Shown: positions 278 through 24,303 of the stretch, piece by piece
Layout of the letters: each line of letters opens with the position of its first letter
How positions within the stretch are numbered: position 1 is the first letter of the stretch
NCBI GenBank assembly: GCA_944381535.1
Contig: CALWLN010000212.1
Span: 1-56,933 of the forward strand
Direction of reading: 5' to 3'
Length of the DNA: 56,933 nt
DNA from: an uncultured Lachnospiraceae bacterium
Lineage (GTDB): Bacteria; Bacillota; Clostridia; Lachnospirales; Lachnospiraceae
Translations under genes and position numbers: made by a program
The notes under the pieces: model-generated
The model's database searches: none
Told to the model about the DNA's origin: nothing
The model's input: the letters and a program-made list of their open reading frames with translations, nothing else

Positions 278-1460
278 AAATATCCTCCCCTCTGTAGCGG
301 GCAATGGCGGCGCAGTCCTTGTCGCCTCTGCCGGAAATGGTGATGACAATGATCTGCTCCTTGTCCATGGCCGGGGCGATCTTCAAGGCGTGGGCCACGG
401 CGTGGGCCGATTCGATGGCGGGGATGATCCCCTCGGTCCTGGCCAGGTACTCAAAGGCGTCCACCGCCTCGTCGTCGGTCACGGGCACATACTCCGCCCG
501 GCCAAGGTCATGAAGATAGGCGTGCTCCGGGCCCACGCCGGGATAGTCAAGGCCCGCGGATATGGAATAAACCGGCGCGATCTGTCCGTATTTGTCCTGA
601 CAGAAGTAGGACTTCATCCCATGGAAAATGCCCACGCTCCCGGTATTTACGGTGGCGGCGGTCTCGAAGGTGTCAATGCCCCGGCCCGCCGCCTCGCAGC
701 CGATGAGCCTTACGCCCGCATCCTCGATAAAATGATAGAAGCTGCCGATGGCGTTGGAACCGCCGCCCACACAGGCCAGCACCGCGTCCGGCAGCCTGCC
801 CTCCTTTGCCAGAAGCTGTTCCTTGATCTCTTTGGAGATCACCGCCTGGAAATCCCGCACAATGGTGGGGAAGGGGTGAGGTCCCATCACCGAGCCCAGG
901 CAGTAATGGGTGTCGGAGATCCTGGAGGTCCACTCCCGCATGGCCTCGGATACGGCGTCCTTCAGGGTGGCAGTTCCCGTCTTGACCGGGATGACCTCAG
1001 CCCCCAGCAGACGCATGCGGTAGACGTTGAGGGCCTGGCGGACGGTGTCCTCCTCCCCCATAAAGACCACGCACTCCATGCCCATCAGGGCCGCCGCCGT
1101 AGCCGTGGCCACGCCGTGCTGTCCGGCTCCGGTCTCGGCGATCAGCCGGGTCTTCCCCATCTTCTTTGCCAGCAGCGCCTGGCCCAGCACATTGTTGATC
1201 TTGTGGGCGCCCGTATGGTTTAAGTCCTCCCGCTTCAGGTAAATCTTCGCGCCGCCCAGATCCTTTGTCATTTTTTCAGCGTAATACAGCCGGGAGGGCC
1301 TGCCCGCGTACTCATTGAAAAGCTCCGTGAGCTCCCGGTTAAATTCCGGGTCATCTTTATAGTGATCATACGCTTCCTCCAGCTCGATCACCGCATTCAT
1401 CAGCGTTTCGGGGATGTACTGTCCCCCGTGAATGCCGAAGCGTCCCTTTTGATTTGTCAT
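270..1460 (-). CDS. trpB: Tryptophan synthase beta subunit
   Basis: TrpB is the PLP enzyme that condenses indole with L-serine to give tryptophan, working as an alpha2-beta2 complex with TrpA in the cytoplasm. The 396-residue length is normal for the family. The PLP-binding lysine is Lys87 in GAHKINN, followed by the AETGAGQHG segment and the glycine-rich phosphate loop [10 protein letters not shown]. The start sits in an ATGA overlap with the end of trpF, and the stop overlaps trpA by 8 nt. This is the classical TrpB1 type, fitting its place beside trpA. Nothing in the sequence looks damaged. Confidence 0.98.
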
Positions 1461-2212
1461 AATCTTTCTTCCTTTCCGCTAACATTATTTTCTTTCCGGA
1501 CCGCCGCCACAAAGGCCGCCATTTTGGCCCTGTCCTTCAAGCCCCCCGTCTCCATGCCGGAGCTTGCGTCCACCCCCCAGGGGTGCAGCGCCTCAATGGC
1601 GCCTTTTACATTGCGGGCGTCAAGCCCTCCGGCCAGGAAATAAGGCCTGTCCATATCCTGAATCAGCGTCCAATCAAAGGCCTTCCCCGTGCCGCCGCTG
1701 CCGGAGTCCAGCAGGATCATGTCCGCGCCGCTGTGCTTCGCGCGCTCCGCGTCCTCCCTGCTTTCGATACGGAAAGCCTTGAAAATAGGTTTGTCGGTGA
1801 GCCTCCGCAGTCTCCTTATGTAATCCTCATCCTCTCCTCCGTGAAGCTGAGCGATGTCAATGATTCCTTCCCGCAAAAGCTCCGCCACCCTCTCAGCCTC
1901 CTCCCTGACAAACACCCCCACCGCCCGTATGGAGGGAGCGAGAAGCCTCCGCAGCGCTGCCGCCTTCTCCGGCGTGACATACCGCCTGCTTCCCGGAGCA
2001 AAAACGAAACCGATGTAGTCGGGATTTAACGCGTTTGCGGCCTCGATGTCGCAGGGACGGGAAAGACCGCACAATTTAATTTGAGTAGTTTCCACAGCCT
2101 TCTGCTTCATACCGGCCCCCGCAATTTCTATAACCTCTTTCCTCATACCGGCCTCCGCAATTCCTACATTCCTCATGCTGGCCCCCGCAATTTCTATAAC
2201 CTCTTGTTTCAT
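1457..2212 (-). CDS. trpF: Phosphoribosylanthranilate isomerase with repeated N-terminal extension
   Basis: TrpF performs the Amadori rearrangement of phosphoribosylanthranilate in the third step of tryptophan synthesis. The core begins at [10 protein letters not shown], which holds the catalytic cysteine; the catalytic Asp is in the GVDASSG segment. The family normally starts a few residues before IKLCG. Here the frame is open 34 codons further upstream, to an ATG at 2212 in an ATGA overlap with trpC. That extension is built from repeats of the type EVIEIAGAG. In-frame ATGs lie at 2212, 2176, 2146 and 2110, each after a GGGGG- or GGAGG-rich stretch, so several starts are possible. The most conventional protein is the 217-residue form from 2110. 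I report the longest frame because its overlap matches the other trp junctions. Confidence 0.93.
2107..2212 (-). repeat. Tandem repeat of the trpC/trpF junction with four ATG starts
   Basis: Reading the minus strand, the segment that carries the G-rich Shine-Dalgarno-like stretch plus ATG recurs at ATGs 2212, 2176, 2146 and 2110, spaced 36, 30 and 36 nt. Two units share the bases GAGGTTATAGAAATTGCGGG. All spacings are multiples of three, so the trpF frame stays open through every copy. Confidence 0.9.
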
Positions 2213-3129
2213 GCCAGCCCCCGCAGTTTCCGAAGCTTCGCCTGCCTATCCGGGGCCCGCATAAGAGTCTCCCCGATCAGCACCCCGTCGGCCCCGATTT
2301 CCCGAAGGGCCGCCACATCCTCCGGCCCGCTGACGCCGCTTTCGGATACGAACAGTACGCTGGCCGGAATCCGTTCCCGCAGCCTTAAGCTATTCTCGGT
2401 GTCTACGGAAAAATCCTTCAGGTTGCGGTTGTTGACGCCGATGATCCGCGCCCCGGCCCTGAGGGCCTTCTCCACCTCCGGCCCGTCGTGGGCCTCCACC
2501 AGAGCGGAAAGCCCCAACAGTTCACAGAGTTCCAAATATTCTCCAAGCTCCTCCTCCGTCAGTATGGCGCAGATCAGAAGCACCGCGGCGGCCCCCAAAA
2601 CCTTGGCTTCGTAGATCATGTACGCATCCACGATAAAATCCTTCCGCAGACAGGGAATGGAAACGCTGTCCGCAATCTCACTAAGATACGCGTCGCTCCC
2701 CAAAAACCATTTCGGCTCCGTCAGCACGGAAATGCAGTCGGCGCCAGCCTTCTCATACTCCCGGGCGATTTCGAGATACGGAAATTCCGGAGCGATCAGC
2801 CCTTTGGAGGGGGAAGCCTTTTTGCATTCACAGATAAAAGAAATCCCCGGCTTCCTTAGAGCATTTTCAAAAGGGAAGGCTTCCTTCCTAGCGGCGGTCT
2901 CACAGGTGGAACCATCCTTCCGGGCCGCGGCCTCACAGGCGGAACCTCCCTTCCGAGCCGCGGCTTCACTGGCGGAAGCACCCTTCCGGGCTGCGGCCTC
3001 ACGGAAGCCCCCTCCTGAAATCATCCCCATCGCCAGCGCCCGCTCTCTCATCTCCTCCAAAGGCACCTTTTCTTTTGCCAGGGCCGTCCGTTCCCGGGCG
3101 TAGCCGGCAAGCTGATCCAAAATCGTCAT
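2209..3129 (-). CDS. trpC: Indole-3-glycerol phosphate synthase with internal repeat insertion
   Basis: TrpC closes the indole ring by decarboxylating carboxyphenylaminodeoxyribulose phosphate, upstream of TrpA. The TIM-barrel core is recognisable from [15 protein letters not shown] (catalytic Glu and Lys), then [20 protein letters not shown] and [13 protein letters not shown]. At 306 residues it is about 45 longer than usual. The excess is an insertion at about residues 36-80, between the N-terminal helix and the first barrel strand. It consists of four 11-residue repeats of the type EAAARKGxSxC, which should form a charged helix. Start and stop both lie in ATGA overlaps with trpD and trpF. 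The catalytic core is intact; the effect of the insertion is unknown. Confidence 0.95.
2883..3008 (-). repeat. 33-bp tandem repeat inside trpC
   Basis: Four units begin on the plus strand at 2883, 2916, 2949 and 2982, with an exact 33-bp period; the last is shortened. Each encodes 11 residues of the form EAAARKGxSxC. Units differ by several substitutions, so the array is not a very recent duplication. Confidence 0.93.
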
Positions 3130-4265
3130 GGCTTCACCTCCGGGCGGTCTCCGGCTCCCGCGGGGGACTCCGCTTTCGGGAAGCTTTCGGCTTCTGCGGG
3201 AGACTCCGCTTTCGGGAAGCTTTCGGCTCCTGCGGGGGACTCCTTTTCCGGGCGGTTGCTGACTTTAATAAGTTTCTGAAGGGTTTCCAGCACCTTGCCG
3301 GAGTCGATGAGCTCCGCCGCCAGGGCGATCCCCTCCTTCATACTGCCGGCCTTTCCTCCGATATAAAGGGAAGCGCCTGCGTTCATGAGAACCGCGTTTC
3401 TTCTAGGGCCCTTCTCACCGCCCAGGACCGCCCGCGTGATCGCCGCGTTCTCCTCAGGGGTGCCGCCTGCCAGGTCGGCCCTCCCGCAGCGTTCAAAACC
3501 GAAATCTTCGGGGGCAATGACATAGGATTTGAGCCAGCCCTCCTTGATCTCACAGATCGTGGTGGGCGCGCTCATGGAAATTTCATCCAGCTTCTCCTGG
3601 CCGTACACTACCATTCCCCGCCGGACGCCCAGGTTGATGAGCACCTGGGCCAGAGGCTCCACCAGATAATCGTCATAGACGCCCAACAGCTGCATGGAAG
3701 GGGTCGCCGGGTTCGTCAGTGGGCCCAGGATGTTGAATACCGTGCGGAAGCCCAACTCCCTGCGGATGGCTCCCACATATTTCATGGAGGTGTGGTATTT
3801 CTGGGCGAAGAAAAAGCACATGCCCACCTCCTTTAAAAGCTCCAGGCACCGGGCGGGGCTCTGCTGGATATTCACGCCCAGGGCCTCCAGGCAGTCCGCC
3901 GTGCCGCACTGGGAGGAGGCCGCCCGGTTCCCGTGCTTGGCCACCTTCATACCTCCCGCCGCCGCCACCAGGCCGGAGGTGGTGGAAATGTTAAAGCTTC
4001 CGGCGTTGTCGCCTCCGGTGCCCACGATCTCGAACACCTCCATGCCGGTATCCACCCTGGTGGCGTGGGCCCGCATGGCGGCGGCGCAGCCCGCGATCTC
4101 GTCCGTGGTCTCCGCCCGGGCGCTTTTCGTGGAGAGGGCCGAGAGGAAGGCAGCGTTCTGGGTGGGGGTGGTCTCTCCGCTCATGATCTCGTTCATGACA
4201 GTGAATGCCTCGTCGTAGGTGAGATCCTCCTTATTTACGATTTTTACAATGGCTTCTTTGATCAT
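3126..4265 (-). CDS. trpD: Anthranilate phosphoribosyltransferase with repetitive C-terminal tail
   Basis: TrpD transfers phosphoribose from PRPP to anthranilate. The PRPP-binding glycine motif [14 protein letters not shown] and the following [12 protein letters not shown] segment are present. The enzyme core ends at about residue 336 (ETLQKLIKV). About 43 further residues form a tail of 12-residue units such as [12 protein letters not shown], rich in Ala, Glu, Ser and Pro and probably disordered. The tail is absent from typical TrpD. The stop overlaps the trpC start by ATGA. A 162-bp gap with a 51-bp tandem duplication separates it from trpG, the longest gap in this operon. Confidence 0.96.
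3153..3243 (-). repeat. 36-bp tandem repeat in the trpD 3' end
   Basis: Two complete units (3153-3188 and 3189-3224 on the plus strand) and a partial third (from 3225) encode AESPAxAESFPK-type segments. The two full units differ at only a few bases. Confidence 0.93.
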
Positions 4266-4321
4266 ATTGCATCACTCCTAACATCCTGATATCACTCTAT
4301 GAAAAATGACAAACAGTTTCT

Positions 4322-4423
4322 TAATTATTGTCCAGTTTTATGGACATAGAGGTATGCCCGGAGGGCGCTTCCTAATTATTGTCCAGTTTTATGGACATAG
4401 AGGTATGCCCGGAGGGCGCTTCC
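4322..4423 (-). repeat. 51-bp direct tandem duplication between trpG and trpD
   Basis: Positions 4322-4372 are repeated at 4373-4423 with no difference I can see. Each copy contains the inverted repeat TGTCCA-GTTTTA-TGGACA, so the trpG-trpD gap could fold into two small hairpins. No coding function is apparent. The second copy ends 4 bp from the trpG stop. Confidence 0.92.
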
Positions 4424-4427
4424 TATA

Positions 4428-5000
4428 TCAATTCCCCAAAGCCAGAAAATTTTTCAACATCCGCTTTCCATGAGGCGTCAAAATGGATTCCGGGTGAAAC
4501 TGCACGCCGAAAATGGGGTACTCCCTGTGCTGCACCGCCATCACCTCCCCGGCCTCCGTGCTGGCCGTGACCTTCAGGCACTGGGGAATGGTCTTCGGCG
4601 CAGCCGCCAGGGAATGGTAACGGGCCACAGGGACCGTCCCCGGACAGCCATAAAACAGCGAGGATGTCACATCCAGCCGGACCTGTGACTGCTTTCCGTG
4701 CATCAGCTGTCTAGCGTAGGTGACCACGGCGCCGAAGGCTTCACAGATGGCCTGATGGCCCAGGCAGACGCCCAGCAAAGGGATCTCCATCCCCAGGGTC
4801 TTTGCCGCCTCCACGATGATCCCCGCCTCCTTCGGCCTGCCCGGCCCCGGCGAGAGGATGATGTGGTCCGGTCCCAGCGCCCGGATCTCCTCCACCGTCA
4901 TCTCGTCGTTGCGGATCACCTGAATATCCGGACGAAGCTCCCCCACCAGTTGATACAGGTTATAAGAAAAACTATCGTAATTATCGATCAGCAAAATCAT
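4428..5000 (-). CDS. trpG: Anthranilate synthase glutamine amidotransferase component
   Basis: TrpG hydrolyses glutamine and channels ammonia to TrpE for anthranilate synthesis. The class I amidotransferase triad is visible: Cys79 in GVCLGHQ, and His and Glu in QFHPES near the C-terminus. The start is placed at the ATG of MILLIDNYDSFSYN, the canonical beginning of the family. That ATG overlaps the trpE stop as ATGA. A longer upstream frame exists but lies inside trpE. The 190-residue protein is of normal length and is not fused to TrpD, as it is in some other bacteria. Confidence 0.97.
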   Translation of the reverse strand: MILLIDNYDSFSYNLYQLVGELRPDIQVIRNDEMTVEEIRALGPDHIILSPGPGRPKEAGIIVEAAKTLGMEIPLLGVCLGHQAICEAFGAVVTYARQLMHGKQSQVRLDVTSSLFYGCPGTVPVARYHSLAAAPKTIPQCLKVTASTEAGEVMAVQHREYPIFGVQFHPESILTPHGKRMLKNFLALGN

Positions 5001-6489: not shown

Positions 6490-6783
6490 ACAAAAAAACG
6501 CCCTTGACAGAAAGAATCATCTGTCAAGGACGAATAAAAGCTTATCCGCGGTGCCACCTTGTTTCGCAGGAAAAAACCTGTGCCCTTAGCGGGATACCAA
6601 CATATCCCCGGCAACTGACGTATGCCCACACGTTGCAGAATACTCTGTGATCTCTCACATTTGACTGCACCCTCAGCGGTCCATTTGACAACTTGTTTCT
6701 CACCCGGTTCTCAGCATCCCGGACTCTCTGTAAAGGCATCATTGCCGTTATCTCCGCTTCAACGGTTTGGTTGATTGAATTTT
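6490..6783 (-). promoter_or_regulatory. T-box leader, tryptophan specific
   Basis: The minus strand carries the T-box sequence AAGGTGGCACCGCG at 6560-6547, the 14-nt signature that pairs with the acceptor end of uncharged tRNA. Upstream lies the stem I region with AGAGAG and GCTGAGAACCGGGTG, and the codon TGG (6683-6681) within AAATGGACC, where the specifier loop is expected. TGG is the tryptophan codon, which fits the genes controlled. The leader terminator follows directly. By analogy with known T-boxes, uncharged tRNA-Trp should favour antitermination and trp transcription. Confidence 0.95.
6492..6532 (-). terminator. Leader terminator of the trp T-box
   Basis: A 13-15 bp stem (arms around CCTTGACAGA and TCTGTCAAGG) with a short loop is followed on the minus strand by seven T residues. 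It sits between the T-box motif and trpE, the usual place of the T-box-controlled terminator. Confidence 0.95.
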
Positions 6784-6846: not shown

Positions 6847-7899
6847 CTATCCGCTAATCATATATTTGGTTTTTAAATCATTGTGCCAATTATATTGAAT
6901 ATACCCTTCCCTTTGCAATCGGCCCACAACAATTCCCGAATCAATTCCAACATAACAGGAAAATTCTTGAATGGATTCTTTCGAAAATTCATGTCTCCTC
7001 AAAAATGTATCATATTGTTCCTCGGGAATCAATGTATTCTTGGCATACTCATCCGCACATTTCTCATCCTTTTCCGTGGTTCCTTCCGCATTTCCTATAT
7101 GGCCATATATAATATGGGCAATTTCATGAAACAGGCTAAACCAGAATTTATCAGCGTCTTTGCCACGCACCGTCAAGCCTACAACAATTTTATTCCTATC
7201 TAAAAAGGTTGCGCCATGCAAAAACGAACCTCCGATATGAGGAAGAAACACGATTGCTATTCCACACTCTGCCAACAATATTGTCAACTTTGGGCAAAAT
7301 TCTGACGGATTCATAGTTGTCATTTTTCTAATCTGCGGGACTCTTTCCAAAAGTAACGCTATATCAATCGGCCTCGTCTCCATTTTTCTGGCCTCCAGTT
7401 TTGCCTTCTGAGCCCACGCGATAAGCGCAAAGTCACTTTTTTCCGTGACCCCAAGTTTTCTACATGCAATTCCTGGGATCAGAGGCCCCTGTAAAAAACT
7501 TAACTGAGCCACTTCAAAATATTTTCTTAAATTCAAAACACGGTCTGTCCAAGCAGAAACGTCTTCCACCCATCCGTGTTTTGCCATTTCCTTATATGGA
7601 ATTTTCTTTGCTATCGCAATATCTTCCTCCATGGTGTTCTCTTCCTGCACCTTCAGGAGTTTCTCCCGATAAATCGCTTCCAGATTACACCAGAACTGAG
7701 CCGGTAGTCCCAATACCATCTCCAAGCGCACCGCTGCATCCATCGTCAAATGCACTTCTCCATTCATAAGCCTGCTAATATGTTTCTCAGACATCCCCAT
7801 TCTCGCGGCAAACTCTTTCTGGCTCATTCCACGCTCCAGCAACTGCTCCTTTATCGTTGCGCCCGGTGGTGTCGCTATAAAACTATGACTTCTTTCCAT
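6847..7899 (-). CDS. HigA-type HTH antitoxin fused to an ImmA/IrrE metallopeptidase domain
   Basis: The N-terminal 75 residues form an XRE/HigA-type helix-turn-helix: GATIKEQLLERGMSQKEFAA, then ISRLMNGEVHLT and VLGLPAQFW. The C-terminal half contains FHEIAHIIYGH, the HExxH zinc motif of the ImmA/IrrE peptidase family. This two-domain build is common for antitoxins paired with HigB/RelE-like toxins. The start follows GAGGAGGCAAAGCA and is well supported. The gene directly follows the remnant of a HigB-like toxin in the same orientation, so this is probably the surviving antitoxin. The protein looks intact. It could act now as a stand-alone repressor; its proteolytic activity is inferred from the motif only. 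Confidence 0.88.
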   Translation of the reverse strand: MERSHSFIATPPGATIKEQLLERGMSQKEFAARMGMSEKHISRLMNGEVHLTMDAAVRLEMVLGLPAQFWCNLEAIYREKLLKVQEENTMEEDIAIAKKIPYKEMAKHGWVEDVSAWTDRVLNLRKYFEVAQLSFLQGPLIPGIACRKLGVTEKSDFALIAWAQKAKLEARKMETRPIDIALLLERVPQIRKMTTMNPSEFCPKLTILLAECGIAIVFLPHIGGSFLHGATFLDRNKIVVGLTVRGKDADKFWFSLFHEIAHIIYGHIGNAEGTTEKDEKCADEYAKNTLIPEEQYDTFLRRHEFSKESIQEFSCYVGIDSGIVVGRLQREGYIQYNWHNDLKTKYMISG

Positions 7900-7911
7900 T
7901 GCTTTGCCTCC

Positions 7912-8145
7912 TCATGTCTGGTATGGGTGAACCAAATCTAATGCATATTGATTTTTTCGATTTCCTTTTAACGGATGGCATCTGCCAATCTTGTATTGTA
8001 TCATCATCTCAACCGAAATTGCTGCTGAAATCTGATCCACCCGCAAATGTATTTTCTCGGCCATTTCCGTTCCATACCTTTTTTCAGCCTCATATGCATT
8101 GGTACATATTTTCTCAATTCTATTGCTTTTATACTGGATTTGCAA
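7912..8145 (-). pseudogene. HigB/RelE-like toxin remnant, cut at both ends
   Basis: The 77-codon frame reads as a HigB-type toxin: KICTNAYEAEKRYGTEMAEK, RVDQISAA, GRCHPLKGNRKNQYALDL and VHPY. Relatives normally continue after HPYR with about 20 more residues forming the last strand; here the frame stops after HPYQT, 12 bp before the antitoxin start. At the other end the expected ATG reads TTG, exactly where the transposase-derived sequence begins. Both edges therefore look damaged. Residual translation from TTG is possible, but no Shine-Dalgarno site of its own is evident. I recognise the family from memory of conserved segments, without alignment. Confidence 0.72.
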
Positions 8146-8146
8146 T

Positions 8147-9095
8147 TGTCTTTTCCCATGATCTCAAAGCATTCCTTATACTCCATCAGGCGCTTCCCAC
8201 ATGCTTCCAGTTCTTCATAAAGCTTCTGGATTTCCGGTTTATGCTTTCCTTTCCCGCAAATGAATCCAATCGCTTCCCCTTGCGCGCTCCGCATCAGGTT
8301 CTTCTGCAGCTTCAGAAGCTCAAGAGGGGAACAGCTGTCGATCTCAATGATCGTATCATTGGAAATCTTCTTATGCTTTGTCAGCTTCCGTTTTCGGTTC
8401 TCTTCAATGACCTTCCTGACTTTATCCATTCCTTCGATCACGAACATATGGGCATCCCCAAGATCGTATTTCGAGCCATATCCGTTCTCCATAAGAAAGG
8501 CATTGTACTTTGTGTAGAGGGCGTCTATGGTATCCAAAAGGCCTGCAAGATGATAATTGAGGCTCTCCCGCCAGACGAACGTGTATCTGTTTGCGTTCGC
8601 TTCCAGTTTTGTTCCGTCAATGTAAAGCTCTTTCAGGGTGATGAATCCTTCCTTCTGAAGACGGCGCATGAACTGACAGTTCAGTTCATCCAGGACTTCT
8701 CCTGTCAGCTTTTTCCCTTTGAAATCGTAGAAAGCATCCCTCTGGGGTTTCTGTCCTTTGGTCAGCCAGATAAATGCAAGGTCTCTCTGGCACAGCTCTA
8801 CGATCCGGTCTACGGCCCGGACGCCCCGCATATTTGCATAGGTAACAACAGCATACATCATGATTGGATTGTACCCGGTTCGCCCTTTATCCGAATAGCA
8901 GGCCAGCAGGCCTGAAAAATCTAATTCCTCCATCACTTTTTTCAGGGTATAGACTGGATCGTCGTCGGGTAAGCCCAAGTCGAGGAAACTGAAATTGATT
9001 TGTTGCCCAATCTCAAAAAAGTCGTTATAATAATTCTTGGTTATCATAGTTTCATTATAACATGGAACGGAGAAAAGGTGGTTGTCGTTAGCCAT
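8147..9095 (-). pseudogene. IS1182-type transposase, 3' third missing
   Basis: The frame starting at MANDNHLFSVPCYN continues with segments typical of IS1182/DUF772 transposases: YNPIMMYAVVTYANMRGVRA, LTKGQKPQRDAF and LYIDGTKLEANANRYTFVW, the last holding the first Asp of the DDE triad. Around position 8146, near residue 316, homology stops and the frame runs on in a shifted frame through the toxin remnant to 8004. The remaining catalytic Asp and Glu are lost, so the element cannot move by itself. No right-end inverted repeat remains. A fused transcript reading from the transposase into the toxin and antitoxin is possible. Confidence 0.85.
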
Positions 9096-9120
9096 CTTTT
9101 TCTCTTTTTTGTGGAAAATT

Positions 9121-9162
9121 ACAGGGGCAGGCGCGACTCGCATGAGTCATGCCTACCCCTGT
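9121..9162. repeat. 42-nt near-perfect hairpin upstream of the transposase
   Basis: Arms ACAGGGGCAGGC and GCCTACCCCTGT pair with one G-T wobble. Inside, GACTC pairs with GAGTC around a GCAT loop, with a 2-bp mismatch between the two stems. It lies 26 bp before the transposase start. It may be the element's left end or a structure that shields the transposase gene from outside transcription. Confidence 0.7.
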
Positions 9163-24133: not shown

Positions 24134-24249
24134 CTGTGTTCTCTCCTCGTAAAATAAGCTTTTTTCTATCTCTTTTATGATTACCGCCACAGTAATACGC
24201 TCTGCAGCCTGCCGGCCTGTCTAAGAACCCGCAGGCCTCAGCCTGCCGC

Positions 24250-24303
24250 TGCTTCATTTTATAACCCGCGGGCCGCTGCTCTATTTTATCACCCGCAGGC
24301 CGC
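24250..24303 (-). repeat. 27-bp tandem duplication at the GH125 stop codon
   Basis: Positions 24277-24303 hold the last codons and stop of the GH125 gene. The copy at 24250-24276 repeats this with a few changes, so a second in-frame VIK-stop follows the first, TAG then TGA. A partial third copy may precede it near 24229. Confidence 0.8.

Follow-up and report, generated by a model that had tools for sequence, protein, structure and literature searches.

Tandem units inside bacterial coding genes are described as in-frame variable-number tandem repeats (VNTRs), the copy number of which varies between strains in a Legionella survey (PMC2639597). The Rickettsia palindromic elements (RPEs), dispersed sequences of about 150 bp, add in-frame extra peptides to metabolic genes (PMC10969869), and short dispersed intergenic repeats with predicted stem-loops are represented in Streptococcus pneumoniae by BOX, RUP and SPRITE, of which BOX contains tandem boxB modules in varying number (PMC3049150). 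Repetitive extragenic palindromic (REP) sequences and miniature inverted-repeat transposable elements (MITEs) are also short, dispersed, hairpin-forming, and present or absent between related genomes. The present study concerns four tandem arrays spread across trpG-trpD-trpC-trpF in the tryptophan (trp) operon of an uncultured Lachnospiraceae bacterium. The operon lies on contig C212 of the draft genome G000 (4.3 Mb, 241 contigs), and the whole 56,933-bp stretch analyzed is referred to below as the window. Three of the arrays are coding and resemble VNTRs in placing tandem units inside genes, and RPEs in adding in-frame peptides to metabolic enzymes; the fourth is a 51-bp pair that shares with BOX, RUP, SPRITE, REP and MITE sequences the properties named above, presence or absence between related genomes being seen at two sites. 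We consider it likely that two processes have met in this operon, namely, local frame-kept duplications, which gave rise to the three coding arrays, and a dispersed intergenic element, to which the 51-bp pair belongs.

The four arrays and the origin of the coding ones

The operon is read from the minus strand in the order trpE-trpG-trpD-trpC-trpF-trpB-trpA, with trpA partial at the window start, and a Pfam scan confirmed TrpE, TrpG, TrpD, TrpC, TrpF, TrpB (as a PALP enzyme) and part of TrpA. A preliminary description of this DNA had listed arrays of 51 × 2, 36, 33 × 4 and 36/30/36 bp crowding the middle of the operon, and Tandem Repeats Finder (TRF) recovered all of them (Table 1), with the period-30 row at 2139–2196 being the same array as that at the trpF start. 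They are the top-scoring arrays of the window, the next separate one having a score of 90. In 20 block-shuffles of the window, only 4 arrays with a score of at least 50 turned up in total, and one shuffle each of the sequence samples from G000 and from the sister species G005 gave none of score at least 80; the four trp arrays are confirmed as real. All three coding arrays (trpD, trpC and trpF) are read through without a frame break, as had been claimed. The accompanying statement that every period is a multiple of three is correct as counted, but it can bear on the frame in no more than the three coding ones, since the 51-bp pair is noncoding. The location of the arrays outside the catalytic parts was also borne out. 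The TrpD array lies outside the Pfam domains (residues 77–324 of 379) and the TrpF array outside its single domain (46–236 of 251), and the TrpC array lies outside the barrel, within the span of the Pfam family IGPS (indole-3-glycerol phosphate synthase), so that its Pfam match does not start until residue 79, at profile position 29.

The origin of the trpC array is the most readily traced. The comparison set comprised 82 TrpC proteins, from the window, records L057–L136 and the congener G002, where L057, the nearest record, is that of the sister (contig CALWDR010000207.1, uncultured Lachnospiraceae E08__bin320), taken as contig C207 of the sister draft G005, which consists of about 340 contigs. 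The KKASPS motif is preceded by 56 residues in 66 of the 82 proteins, by 102 in the window and L057, and by 53–79 in the other 14, and none of the 80 proteins besides those of the window and the sister has an insert as long at the array position. A native motif, FxFExALxKPG, adjoins the array with a spacing of 11 residues, equal to the array unit; in G002, where 56 residues precede KKASPS, this segment reads FAFEKSLKKPG, and a similar motif occurs in other relatives. Counted by eye, the array unit of the sister shares 7 of its 11 residues, in register, with the native segment FPFEAALRKPG, and at the DNA level the native segment differs from the units at 13–15 of 33 bases in the sister and 17–22 of 33 in the window, where the units differ from one another at 5–11 of 33 bases. 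Unit length, register and residue match with the native segment make its in-frame duplication the most likely beginning of the trpC array. Comparison with the sister also showed that each outer unit is most similar to the unit at the same position (3 and 5 differences) and that the inner units match crosswise: window 2 is closest to sister 3, and window 3 to sister 2, with 2 differences each. This crosswise similarity hints at turnover of the units, but window 3 and sister 3 are separated by only 3 differences.

In the AlphaFold2 model built from 42 aligned TrpC sequences, the barrel was predicted with confidence, and the predicted local distance difference test (pLDDT) score was below 50 for residues 39–82, that is, for nearly the whole array. 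A fold search with this model returned IGPS structures as the best matches, together with designs on the IGPS fold. Judged from the model, the array probably forms a flexible loop that links the N-terminal helices to the short helix preceding barrel strand 1.

The trpF unit is composed of the trpC 3′ end, a Shine-Dalgarno (SD)-like GGGGG or GGAGG, and the overlapping ATGA. Four in-frame ATGs are present at the trpF start (2212, 2176, 2146 and 2110), each after GGGGG or GGAGG, compared with two in the sister; a frequent TrpF start in relatives is MT[KR]IKLCGL. The array matches only its own locus in G000 and the orthologue in G005. At another gene junction of G005 (L144:5853-5924, minus strand), a 36-bp duplication of SD and start codon akin to the trpF start array was observed. 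For the trpD tail array, the sole match in G000 was its own locus, and no match was found in G005 or G002.

The trp operon of the window is 95.8% identical to that of L057 over 6157 aligned positions, and the sole gaps in the trimmed alignment are the 108 bp of the trpD tail array and 66 bp (2165–2230) at the trpF start. Each stretch has a length divisible by three and occurs in the window but not in the sister, so that the two species differ in the trpD tail and in two trpF units; the 51-bp pair and the four-unit trpC array are common to both, and the trpC array is absent from G002. Among 79 other trp loci, some of which are cut by contig ends, arrays of score at least 70 were detected in three, within an interval reaching from 300 bp before trpC to 800 bp beyond it: within TrpF and in frame in L075, between trpD and trpC in L079, and at the trpF start and in frame in L131. 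All three are unlike the window arrays in sequence, which speaks against units fixed in all Lachnospiraceae trp operons and suggests that the neighborhood of trpC tolerates arrays.

Array density and reading frame across genomes

Density was expressed as arrays of score at least 80 per 100 kb in sampled stretches, the G000 sample excluding the window. It reached 5.1 in G000 (27 in 530,562 bp), 11.7 in G005 (29 in 248,321 bp), 5.7 in G002 (5 in 86,961 bp) and 10.6 in G004 (11 in 103,530 bp), with the samples of G005 and G002 including trp contigs picked deliberately, and only 1.7 in G001 (2 in 118,646 bp) and 0.6 in G003 (1 in 154,532 bp). Five other genera pooled gave 2.1 (8 in 379,838 bp, three of the eight in G020), and the 79 other trp loci gave 1.8 (12 in 672,974 bp). 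The density is therefore raised in G000 and in three of the five sampled congeners (G005, G002 and G004). Even in this background the trp operon is unusual, with four arrays over three genes and a spacer, since in the samples of G000, G005 and G002 just one other 2.3-kb stretch carried three arrays, all of them in a single gene.

Periods divisible by three were found in 44 of 45 coding arrays, against 8 of 21 noncoding ones, in G000, the window, G005 and G002 taken together (the exception sits in an open reading frame (ORF) of 40 codons). This contrast is partly built in, because the home-made, ORF-based gene caller that defined the coding sequences places frame-breaking arrays outside them and is thus biased toward such an outcome. 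With this caveat, the contrast is what a general duplication process passed through a frame filter predicts, and, together with the sister indels at the arrays, it upholds the short-duplication process proposed in the preliminary description. Other proteins, conserved ones among them, also carry such arrays: the Pfam scan covered 30 of the 36 array-hosting proteins outside the window and, besides surface proteins and proteins of unknown kind, recognized a Cu-oxidase_4 protein, a tRNA_U5-meth_tr protein, a protein with two ABC domains, a DnaB_2 protein, a Colicin_V (CvpA-type) protein, an SNF2-family helicase, and a response regulator carrying the array between its domains. The MutL linker of G005 contains a 36-bp × 4.4 in-frame array (L287, G005:C51; TRF 675-832), and in the mutS-mutL stretch of G000 (L286) TRF reported no arrays.

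Besides the bias of the gene caller and the deliberate choice of trp contigs, several points weigh against local, frame-filtered duplication as the source of the coding arrays. A native seed sequence was not recognized for the trpD tail array. With one genome per species, the 108- and 66-bp differences may be either gains or losses, and G002 might have lost a trpC array. Two of the 44 coding arrays with periods divisible by three are in ORFs of just 52 and 45 codons, and G020, from outside the genus, has 5.9 arrays per 100 kb, calculated from 3 arrays. Plain loss of mismatch repair was rejected as a cause of the raised density, as MutS_I and MutL_C were found in G000 and all five congeners. 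Finally, alignment of G000 with G005 revealed 37 indels of at least 12 bp over 45,054 positions, coding and noncoding pooled, 11 of them with lengths divisible by three; a single one resembled its flank at 0.7 or more in a simple test that is blind to multi-unit arrays, the 108-bp one for example, and these figures give no ground for regarding tandem change as the main source of indels.

Local duplication combined with a separate element nevertheless remains the reading we prefer. The coding arrays would have arisen by tandem duplication in place, most likely through replication slippage or unequal recombination, from sequence that was already there, namely, the native helix segment in trpC and the junction of trpC end, SD and ATGA at trpF. 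Changes that keep the frame, situated at termini or linkers, would then have persisted, with selection acting as the frame filter, and the trp arrays would be one example of the raised array density in part of the genus. The 51-bp pair between trpG and trpD is separate from these and consists of copies of a patchy, dispersed, intergenic, two-hairpin element that usually stands in sense orientation just before an SD sequence. It fits two separate processes that G004 is rich in arrays and without this element. Arrays and element may both affect translation or the mRNA.

The dispersed 51-bp element

A DNA search located the 51-bp unit at five further places in G000. The covariance model built from 12 seed copies gave 22 matches in G000, 50 in G005 and 39 in G002, whereas G001, G003, G004 and 15 genomes from outside the genus had no match. 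With an E-value of at most 1e-6, the model rebuilt from 71 matches found the element in 12 of 120 family genomes, two of which are G000 and G005; G118 had 32 matches, G020 had 19 and G018 had 7. Both searches scored only part of the first-look candidates, and the counts are lower bounds. The notion of a genus-bound element was dropped once the family-wide search had found carriers outside the genus, and the element family is patchy in its distribution. No Rfam family matched at the gathering cut-offs across the window, nor at E-values up to 1 in 4250–4500.

In the alignment of the 71 matches (66 distinct rows), 93.6% of the helix-pair cells were paired and 7 of 10 pairs were changed on both sides. 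Cells changed on both sides numbered 61, compared with 19.8 in shuffles (0 of 500 as high), and the number of pair types was unexceptional (87 of 500 shuffles as high). On this alignment the hairpins are conserved with compensatory changes, a result weakened by the fitting of the alignment to the structure model; the 12 seed copies by themselves showed no covariation signal.

A start codon with an SD-like motif was present within 60 nt downstream in sense orientation for 43 of 49 copies, 40 of these at 1–14 nt, against 2 of 49 copies in antisense and 281 of 980 random positions under the same loose test. The 49 copies were taken from 111 matches in three species after upstream tandem units and some duplicates had been dropped, and they represent the best and the tandem loci, not a random draw; moreover, the element's own end is SD-like, which raises the sense-orientation score. 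The trp copies are an outlier, standing 51 nt before the start codon. Copies of the family were also seen before ORFs starting (M/V)KVRSSVK in two genera (L254:7434-7483 and L293), which look like rpmJ.

Two sites filled in one genome and empty in the other were read. In one case, a G005 copy that deviates from the trp units by 1–2 bases at its 3′ end corresponds to an empty orthologous site in G000; in the other, a G000 copy is missing at its G005 counterpart, where loss is equally possible. Direct repeats flank one of the two sites, and they are at the same time the unit's own end. As a mobilizer, a REP-associated tyrosine transposase (RAYT) with the Y1_Tnp domain was rejected, because transposase presence does not track the carriers: Y1_Tnp matches were obtained in the carriers G000, G005 and G020, not in the carriers G002, G118 and G018, and also in G008, G009, G012 and G017, where no 51-bp element was found. 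Tandem arrays of the family, 13 with both trp arrays included, have periods of 45 (five), 46, 49, 51 (five) and 52 bp. Ten of the 13 are divisible by three and three are not, so that absence of a multiple-of-three bias cannot be claimed; the lengths look like subtypes of one family and not like independent events. A second dispersed intergenic tandem family, with a core like TAGGAACCGCTTCGCRAACCCTATAAT and a period of 36 or 40, was also observed (Table 1).

Some other features of the window were recorded. A T-box leader, a known kind of operon regulation, precedes trpE at 6523–6771 on the minus strand; with 87 bits for RF00230 against a gathering threshold of 93, it falls just below the cut-off and was missed by the Rfam scan at gathering cut-offs. 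Upstream of the operon (6847–9143, minus strand) are a gene with helix-turn-helix (HTH) and IrrE-like (Peptidase_M78) domains and a DUF772 transposase gene. A 27-bp × 2.2 array at 24245–24303 is noncoding according to the home-made gene caller.

Table 1 Features of the trp arrays and sites of a second repeat family (window positions unless a record is named)
Feature	Position	Strand	TRF score	Evidence
51-bp × 2.1 noncoding array, trpG/trpD spacer; two copies of the two-hairpin element	4318..4425	-	209	TRF 4318-4425 (period 51); covariance model matches 4317-4371, 4368-4422
trpD, anthranilate phosphoribosyltransferase	3126..4265	-		Pfam Glycos_transf_3, Glycos_trans_3N
trpD tail array, 108 bp (3 × 36), in frame, just upstream of trpC start	3149..3256	-	163	Alignment gap; TRF 3152-3243 (period 36)
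trpC, indole-3-glycerol phosphate synthase	2209..3129	-		Pfam IGPS; fold search
trpC array, 33-bp (11-aa) units, TrpC residues 42-85	2875..3006	-	156	TRF 2883-3002 (period 33); unit comparison
Native trpC segment, residues 86-96, in register with array units, likely array seed	2842..2874	-		11-residue spacing, FxFExALxKPG-like motif
36/30/36-bp array across trpC stop / trpF start	2107..2230	-	129	TRF 2107-2230 (period 36); alignment; start list
trpF, phosphoribosylanthranilate isomerase	1457..2212	-		Pfam PRAI 46-236
Second tandem family, sites	L010:5296-5386, L025:6335-6444, L152:2420-2498, L247:1819-1925, L250:1118-1233			

Other explanations and comparison with known systems

The preliminary description had treated the four arrays as one phenomenon, and this did not survive, the 51-bp pair being a dispersed element found mostly just before SD sequences. 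Such an element might serve as a regulatory leader, be a mobile repeat, or combine the two. A more far-reaching version can be put forward only tentatively: the 51-bp unit might represent a new mobile translation-leader family in Lachnospiraceae, which comes to lie after a stop codon and ahead of the following SD, by insertion or by copying, brings its own SD-like end, multiplies in tandem, and resets downstream translation, the trpF units of SD and ATG then being the coding-side version of the same SD-centered duplication.

It is rather improbable that the repeats together form a tunable translation device, in which the number of SD and ATG units at trpF and the repeats before trpC and trpD would set initiation and the enzyme ratio. 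The four trpF starts, each after GGGGG or GGAGG, against two in the sister, the second duplication of SD and start codon (36 bp) at a G005 gene junction, and the usual adjacency of the 51-bp element to an SD speak for such a device, and in tested Escherichia coli gene pairs the share of the SD in termination-reinitiation ranged from strictly essential to none (PMC6728339). However, the enzyme core is identical whichever of the four trpF starts is used, which may leave the array silent, and the trpC array plays no part at a start site. Moreover, the 51-bp copies in the trp operon stand unusually far from the start codon, and arrays near trpC are rare in relatives (3 of 79).

Functional protein parts, such as tethers joining successive tryptophan enzymes into a scaffold, as the preliminary description also proposed, seem very unlikely. 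The arrays do affect three consecutive enzymes, and some constraint is indicated by the ratio of nonsynonymous to synonymous substitutions (dN/dS) between the window and the sister (0.27 in the trpC array, 0.23 before it and 0.14 after it, from small counts). Against this, the TrpC array has no confidently predicted structure beside an intact barrel, the trpD tail is missing and the trpF start is shorter in the sister, the units of the three enzymes look unlike one another (by eye), and arrays of this type are also carried by unrelated proteins. An assembly artefact is barely credible: both genomes are fragmented drafts and the trpD tail and extra trpF units were seen in G000 only, but the separate sister assembly also contains the 51-bp pair and the trpC array, the trpC units of the window differ from one another, and units of 30–66 bp are shorter than the usual short read.

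With the two-process explanation, local in-frame duplication has made several enzymes of a single core operon longer within a genus, and the likely source of the trpC unit is still visible alongside it, which makes the birth of new protein segments traceable. The species of the genus with high and low array density offer a natural comparison for what sets the rate of tandem duplication, and the 51-bp family is a candidate regulatory or mobile leader. A literature search limited to open-licence papers, judged by title and the start of the abstract, contained nothing recognized as describing such trp-gene arrays or the 51-bp element.

Compared with known systems, the coding arrays, with units inside coding sequences, periods divisible by three and an open frame, belong to the established class of in-frame intragenic tandem repeats, found here in an uncommon location and with a traceable origin for one of them. 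Unlike the VNTRs of the Legionella survey (PMC2639597), the trpD and trpF arrays are seen to vary between sister species, the coding arrays affect housekeeping biosynthetic genes that follow one another, and the trpC unit has a traceable source in adjoining native sequence. They differ from RPEs, which are dispersed (PMC10969869), in that the trpD and trpF arrays are tandem and occur only at their own G000 locus, the trpC array being outside that search. The 51-bp unit, with its many dispersed copies, belongs with the dispersed intergenic hairpin repeats of the BOX, REP or MITE kind. With regard to REP sequences and MITEs, the two pairs of filled and empty sites revealed no clear terminal inverted repeat or target duplication, and Y1_Tnp does not track the carriers. 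BOX, RUP and SPRITE are reported as over-represented between convergent genes (PMC3049150), whereas 43 of the 49 copies of the 51-bp family stand in sense orientation before an SD and start codon, a comparison made by description only; this element before SD sequences is a more novel lead than the coding arrays.

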